Shown here piece after piece: positions 52,724 to 53,171 of a DNA stretch of 64,000 nt. Within the stretch, counting starts at the first letter, position 1. Each line of letters begins with the position of its first letter. A program made the translations under genes and the position numbers. The stretch covers positions 2,294,001 to 2,358,000 of the forward strand of contig NC_013523.1 in the NCBI RefSeq assembly GCF_000024985.1. Reading direction: 5' to 3'. The DNA is from Sphaerobacter thermophilus DSM 20745 (lineage in GTDB: Bacteria > Chloroflexota > Chloroflexia > Thermomicrobiales > Thermomicrobiaceae). Below the pieces are notes generated by a model that ran no database searches, had not been told where the DNA came from, and worked only from the letters and a program-made list of their open reading frames with translations.

Positions 52724-52921
52724 CTAGTGGAAGTGGTTGTGGCCGCCACCCACGGTCAGGTAGAGGATCGCGATCACCACGGCAATGACGATGATGACGG
52801 TCATCGCCGGCCGCGGGATCTCCTCTTCCTCGTCCTCGTAGTCACCTTGTCCTACATGGCCTGCGAGGTCCAGATCCTCCGGGCCGGTCCCGTGCAGCGG
52901 CTGGTCCGGCTTCTCGGCCAT
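52724..52921 (-). CDS. Mini membrane protein with His-rich tail
   Basis: A 65-residue protein. An acidic cytosolic N-terminus (1-38) is followed by one hydrophobic helix (about 40-58, TVIIVIAVVIAILYLTVG) and the tail GGGHNHFH. ATG at 52921 has GAGGGAG ahead. It starts 13 bp after the stop of the glutaredoxin-like gene, so the two are probably one transcript. The three histidines near the end could bind a metal at the outer face. Not recognised as a known family. Confidence 0.65.
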   Translation of the reverse strand: MAEKPDQPLHGTGPEDLDLAGHVGQGDYEDEEEEIPRPAMTVIIVIAVVIAILYLTVGGGHNHFH

Positions 52922-52934
52922 ACGCTCCCTCGAA

Positions 52935-53171
52935 TCAGGTCAGGCCCAGCAGGCGGGAGAGCCGCGCCTGGTCGAACCCGATGACGACGTGCTCGCCATC
53001 GATCAGCGTTGTCGGCGTCAGGTACGAGCCCAGCTCCAGCAGCTCCCGGAGCGCGTCCGGGTCCTCGGTGATGTCTCGCACCGTATAACTGATGCCGCGT
53101 CGAGATAGATACTCCATCTCCTGGTGGCAGGCCCGTCACCCGGGCTGGGAAAAGATGACGACCGTATGCAT
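52935..53171 (-). CDS. Glutaredoxin-like protein with in-frame UGA at the catalytic cysteine (candidate selenoprotein)
   Basis: Read through one UGA, the 78-residue product has the full glutaredoxin layout: MHTVVIFSQPG, UGA, RACHQEMEYLSRRGISYT, the linking EDPDALRELLELG, cis-proline LTPTTLIDG and the C-terminal VIGFDQARLSRLLGL. The UGA (53138-53136, codon 12) sits exactly where the first Cys of CxxC belongs, giving UxxC. Fifteen bases after it a stem GAGATG / TATCTC with loop GAGTATC (53120-53102) resembles a bacterial SECIS. ATG at 53171, with GAGAG ahead; an in-frame ATG 12 bases upstream is possible. The alternative is a nonsense mutation (TGC to TGA) or a base-call error. A shorter product from ATG 53117 would lack the active site. 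Confidence 0.65.
53102..53120 (-). promoter_or_regulatory. Candidate SECIS hairpin
   Basis: On the minus strand, 15 bases after the UGA, GAGATG pairs with TATCTC (one G-U) around the 7-base loop GAGTATC. The loop begins with G and starts 22 bases past the UGA, inside the window generally accepted for bacterial SECIS elements. The stem is short, so the call is tentative. Confidence 0.4.

Follow-up and report, generated by a model that had tools for sequence, protein, structure and literature searches.

A glutaredoxin-like gene in the analyzed region of Sphaerobacter thermophilus DSM 20745 (a stretch of 64,000 nucleotides, referred to as the window) was found, with very high probability, to encode a glutaredoxin-fold selenoprotein with selenocysteine (Sec) inserted at residue 12. 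The apparently broken gene is almost certainly intact and its UGA read as Sec, since the codon is conserved, it is followed by a likewise conserved RNA hairpin, and the genome holds the full Sec machinery. The replacement of the catalytic Cys by Sec had been proposed in a preliminary description of this DNA and is supported computationally by the position of the UGA, the covarying SECIS element, the machinery and the selection downstream of the codon. The tested support covers these lines, including the evolution of the SECIS element.

The minus-strand translation from 53171 to 52935 is MHTVVIFSQPG*RACHQEMEYLSRRGISYTVRDITEDPDALRELLELGSYLTPTTLIDGEHVVIGFDQARLSRLLGLT*. The complete glutaredoxin-like frame is broken solely by the UGA (53138-53136), which confirms the earlier description; this one internal stop is codon 12, where the CxxC site (SQPG-U-RAC) would have its first Cys. 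With Cys placed at position 12, the PF00462 score was 48.8 bits (gathering cut-off 22.9). With the stop kept it was 38.5 bits, and this match is the only one to PF00462 across the S. thermophilus genome. The C/UxxC site that marks a glutaredoxin is present as U12-R-A-C15. P53 is invariant in the alignment and, judged from the family, is probably the cis-Pro of the thioredoxin fold. An AlphaFold model calculated without an alignment had a pLDDT of 67.5, which is too weak to show P53 as cis-Pro, and a structure search with this model gained little over the sequence matches. As the single-sequence model is poor, the assignment to the glutaredoxin fold is based on sequence similarity.

A promoter or terminator could not be recognised at the gene. 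For the acidic membrane protein encoded downstream (Table 1), a Pfam search gave no match. In a relative of the same genus the glutaredoxin-like gene is followed by a similar ORF of 66 residues, and the two genes are possibly co-transcribed.

Table 1. Features of the predicted selenoprotein gene and related loci (positions refer to the window unless a contig is named).
Feature	Position	Strand	Remarks
Glutaredoxin-like gene, predicted to contain Sec	52935..53171	minus	78 residues + stop; start codon ATG at 53171
In-frame UGA, codon 12, predicted Sec	53136..53138	minus	nucleophilic position of UxxC; TGA column common to homologues
Cys15, predicted resolving cysteine of UxxC	53127..53129	minus	invariant in protein alignment
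bSECIS hairpin, stem GAGATGGA/UCUAUCUC	53102..53120	minus	apical loop GUA at 53112-53110; covariation, SECIS model
Gene of a 65-residue acidic protein	52724..52921	minus	one apparent membrane span; 13 nt downstream of glutaredoxin-like gene
selD (L018)	G000:C1:929787-928852	minus	own in-frame TGA, motif CAG-U
ArsC/Spx-like gene (L103), predicted selenoprotein	G000:C1:1826197-1826153	minus	site HPT-U-TSC
Longer Sec-glutaredoxin loci			L035, L043, L049, L053, L056, L059-L067, L069-L072, L082, L097

Searches for homologues covered 158 genomes at the class level and 400 at the phylum level (Chloroflexota) and gave many matches with one internal TGA. The extracted set comprises 43 TGA sequences, the window gene included, and 34 sequences with Cys at the corresponding column. 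In each of the 43, it is the first active-site residue that is encoded by TGA. The preliminary description had named the codon of close relatives, and a possible scatter of further stops in them, as the points to compare: TGA or Cys was found at exactly this column, and the other 42 TGA sequences contain this single stop in an otherwise open frame. Within the genus, one genome (G112) has a TGA gene with 92% identity and another (G113) a Cys gene with 59% identity. Because the 92%-identical gene also has the TGA, it is very improbable that the codon is a sequencing error in a single genome; the error rate stated for the S. thermophilus genome, in which genes were predicted by Prodigal, is < 1 in 100,000 (PMC3035262). 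When the single protein was searched against GTDB contigs, the Sphaerobacter sp. relative was the only match; plasmid records gave two weak matches and viral contigs none.

In comparison with the 92%-identical orthologue, pN/pS was 0.27 for the whole gene and 0.32 for the part after the UGA (one pair, 11 changed codons). Neither the SECIS codons 18-25 nor residues 1-11 differ within this pair. These values fit purifying selection on the sequence after the UGA and translation through this codon, although the numbers are small. They also bear on the possibility that an ordinary glutaredoxin gene was hit by a random nonsense mutation. The frame is indeed interrupted, and standard gene calling would retain just the downstream ORF of 60 residues. 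However, the identical TGA column recurs in many lineages without further stops, the downstream part evolves under purifying selection, and the covarying hairpin and the Sec machinery described below are not accounted for by a pseudogene. It had been argued earlier that a random mutation would rarely strike exactly that codon; the comparative data speak strongly against such an event, and this explanation is very improbable.

A tree of 76 domains was poorly resolved. At least 11 changes between Sec and Cys are needed, and no direction was drawn from it. The gene neighbourhoods differ across the genomes and a consistent partner could not be found. Judged on the first residues only, a flavin disulfide reductase-like gene lies 10 nt downstream of the Sec-glutaredoxin L074, arsenic-resistance-like genes are located next to L075, and IscU-like and cysteine-desulfurase-like genes next to L078.

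Longer Sec-glutaredoxins of about 160-180 residues were also observed (Table 1), in which the TGA falls in a UPWC or UPYC site and the hairpin is conserved. Pfam shows a PDZ domain at the C-terminus of L043, which reached no NCBIfam cut-off; for the other longer loci such a domain is assumed from the length.

For the RNA downstream of the UGA, the preliminary description had proposed the hairpin GAGATG/TATCTC with the loop GAGTATC. This hairpin is present, starting 15 nt past the UGA; in the minimum-energy fold the pairing extends by two bases, and the loop is GUA. The constraints published for bSECIS elements are a loop of 3-9 nt, a stem of 4-16 bp, a G in the first two loop positions, a spacing of 16-37 nt and an MFE <= -7.5 (PMC13188914). 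The window hairpin lies within all of them (loop GUA, 8 bp, 23 nt, -7.6 to -9.2 kcal/mol). The preliminary description had cited a similar geometry, an apical loop about 16-37 bases past the UGA, usually with a G at the loop start.

As a single sequence, the 52-nt stretch is unremarkable against dinucleotide shuffles (z = -0.96). Since this value is not significant, comparative evidence is required for the hairpin, and since its RNA is also coding, random synonymous codons were used as the null. For the window gene, this null does establish the hairpin, as none of 2,000 recoded versions was as stable as the native fold. Over all 43 TGA genes, an average of 5.60 of 7 pairs were formed compared to 3.91 +/- 0.15 expected (500 draws, maximum 4.40), whereas the 34 Cys genes showed no excess (3.09 of 7 pairs; 3.25 +/- 0.14 expected). 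Many of the PDZ-fused homologues have a register shifted by one base, so that the count of pairs in a fixed register understates them.

Covariation was analyzed in 23 gap-free aligned TGA homologues, which were picked for the stem register of the window gene. Of the cells of the seven-pair stem, 92.5% are paired, and pairing falls to 37-67% when the partner is slid by 1-3 columns. Double-sided changes were found at four pairs, in 20 cells compared to 3.7 in shuffles, and the covariation score was reached by none of 500 shuffles. Across the TGA homologues the hairpin is kept, with compensatory changes, and the Cys homologues lack it; it is this comparison with relatives that settles it as real.

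A covariance model from which the two Sphaerobacter sequences had been left out matched the window site at E 5e-8 and an ArsC-like gene, which was never part of the model, at E 2.8e-5. When the whole S. thermophilus genome was searched with the full SECIS model (E up to 10), only two sites were obtained, the window gene and a second UGA-containing gene. This second predicted selenoprotein gene is ArsC/Spx-like (Table 1), with the hairpin GCTCAGGAGTATCTTGAGC. Its protein with Cys substituted scores 86.9 bits for TIGR01617; for the curated ArsC selenoprotein model the score is 33 bits against 85.

The location of the hairpin is also relevant for the translation start. An ORF of 60 residues starts with the ATG at 53117, has AGGAG immediately ahead of it and would give a protein without the active site. 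This ATG, however, lies inside the SECIS stem with zero spacing to the AGGAG, its use would remove the first beta strand and the UxxC site, which both define the family, and residues 1-11 are identical in the two Sphaerobacter genomes compared. The chance that it is the true start is therefore negligible.

The genome was further analyzed for the Sec machinery. The genes selA, selB, selC and selD, whose presence had been named as a check on the earlier claim, were all found above curated cut-offs. SelA matched with 433.5 bits, SelB with 358.7 bits (cut-off 242) and SelD with 380.3 bits, and the tRNA-Sec (74.1 bits, cut-off 47; anticodon tca) was detected by two methods. As selD itself has an in-frame TGA (Table 1), the number of selenoproteins predicted for S. 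thermophilus is three or more. When genomes of at least 90% completeness are considered, SelA matches occur in all 26 that have a TGA homologue, compared to 20 of the 28 with Cys homologues only (Fisher P 0.004, relatedness uncorrected); in the 26 TGA genomes, one SelA is a fragment at a contig end and one is split between contigs. At all completeness levels, the numbers are 36 of 39 and 31 of 41, respectively (P 0.07). Because relatedness is uncorrected, this association is supporting and not decisive.

A decoding of the UGA by near-cognate suppression, or as Trp or Cys, would likewise open the codon, which is open only if it is reassigned somehow, but there is next to no likelihood of this, as UGA is a normal stop here (the glutaredoxin-like gene itself terminates with TGA), a dedicated tRNA-Sec with the anticodon UCA is present, and the hairpin is restricted to TGA homologues. 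The pseudogene, the downstream start and the nonspecific read-through were all rejected on the comparative, hairpin and machinery evidence.

The best match among solved structures, determined by sequence, is glutaredoxin-1 of Clostridium oremlandii (cGrx1; 7c10, E 8.5e-10). This protein is described as natively Sec-containing, with the site U(or C)PXC, in which the catalytic residue attacks the target and the second Cys resolves (PMC7642778). The window protein is about one-third identical to it. As in cGrx1 and the bacterial Sec-glutaredoxins (PF00462, UxxC), it belongs to the same fold family by similarity and has Sec in the first and the resolving Cys in the fourth position of UxxC; an EFLS/EYLS stretch past the active site is shared as well. 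The two differ in their background, since the Clostridium protein is described as being reduced by glutathione (PMC7642778) whereas the window gene comes from an obligately aerobic thermophile in which no glutamate-cysteine ligase was found.

For the actual incorporation of Sec, the catalytic cycle and its reductant, we infer the following steps. SelB with Sec-tRNA-Sec would bind the hairpin just past the UGA, so that the ribosome inserts Sec at residue 12. By homology to cGrx1, the protein would act as a UxxC thiol-disulfide oxidoreductase in which Sec12 attacks and reduces a partner's disulfide or similar oxidised group; Cys15 would then resolve the intermediate under formation of a selenenylsulfide bond. 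This bond would probably be reduced by a thioredoxin-reductase-like flavoenzyme or a non-glutathione low-molecular-weight thiol. Neither family of glutamate-cysteine ligase (PF04107 and PF04262) was found in the S. thermophilus genome, which makes glutathione an unlikely reductant, with import of glutathione or the use of another thiol as possible routes. Two thioredoxin-reductase-like genes were detected, whose scores of 230 and 155 bits do not reach the curated cut-off (343), and an electron transfer from such a flavoenzyme to the glutaredoxin-like protein may be assumed.

Sec-glutaredoxins are an established family, to which the window protein adds a new member. Three Sec-containing glutaredoxins were listed in 2006 (PMC1794560), and a review from 2026 lists Grx (PF00462, UxxC; PMC13188914). 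The closest selenoprotein model is NCBIfam Uxx-star (NF041212), which is glutaredoxin-like, owes its name to Sec as the first active-site residue and covers residues 4-68. The window protein scores 47 bits and misses its cut-off of 66. For UXX-star family 2 (of families 1-3) it reaches 39.5 bits against 100, and it differs from the Uxx-star families in retaining a Cys at the fourth position (UxxC). The protein also resembles YruB (TIGR02196) and NrdH (TIGR02194). YruB is the best overall model, with 54.1 bits over nearly the whole length, and both scores are below the curated cut-offs (88.55 and 85.75, respectively). Since every curated NCBIfam selenoprotein cut-off is missed, the window gene may well be missed by automatic annotation. 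In the open literature, no paper was found that names this gene or that mentions Sphaerobacter together with a selenoprotein glutaredoxin; supplementary tables lay outside this search and an earlier listing is possible.

It is an evenly balanced proposition that Sec-glutaredoxins have radiated broadly in the Chloroflexota, for the most part without annotation, and that these proteins, single-domain as well as PDZ-fused, score below the curated models and work independently of glutathione, with the Sec form as the only PF00462 glutaredoxin of S. thermophilus. The data suggest that a considerable number of Sec-glutaredoxins in this phylum escape the curated selenoprotein models. The shared hairpin can serve as a practical search model, which revealed the second predicted selenoprotein gene in S. 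thermophilus. For the organism itself, what looks like a pseudogene in the finished genome of a type strain is now predicted to encode a redox enzyme that is likely functional. S. thermophilus S 6022T is an obligate aerobe with an optimum of 55 °C (PMC3035262). With selenium in its sole recognisable glutaredoxin and no evident glutathione pathway, it would be a clean system for the question why Sec persists in a thiol-disulfide oxidoreductase.
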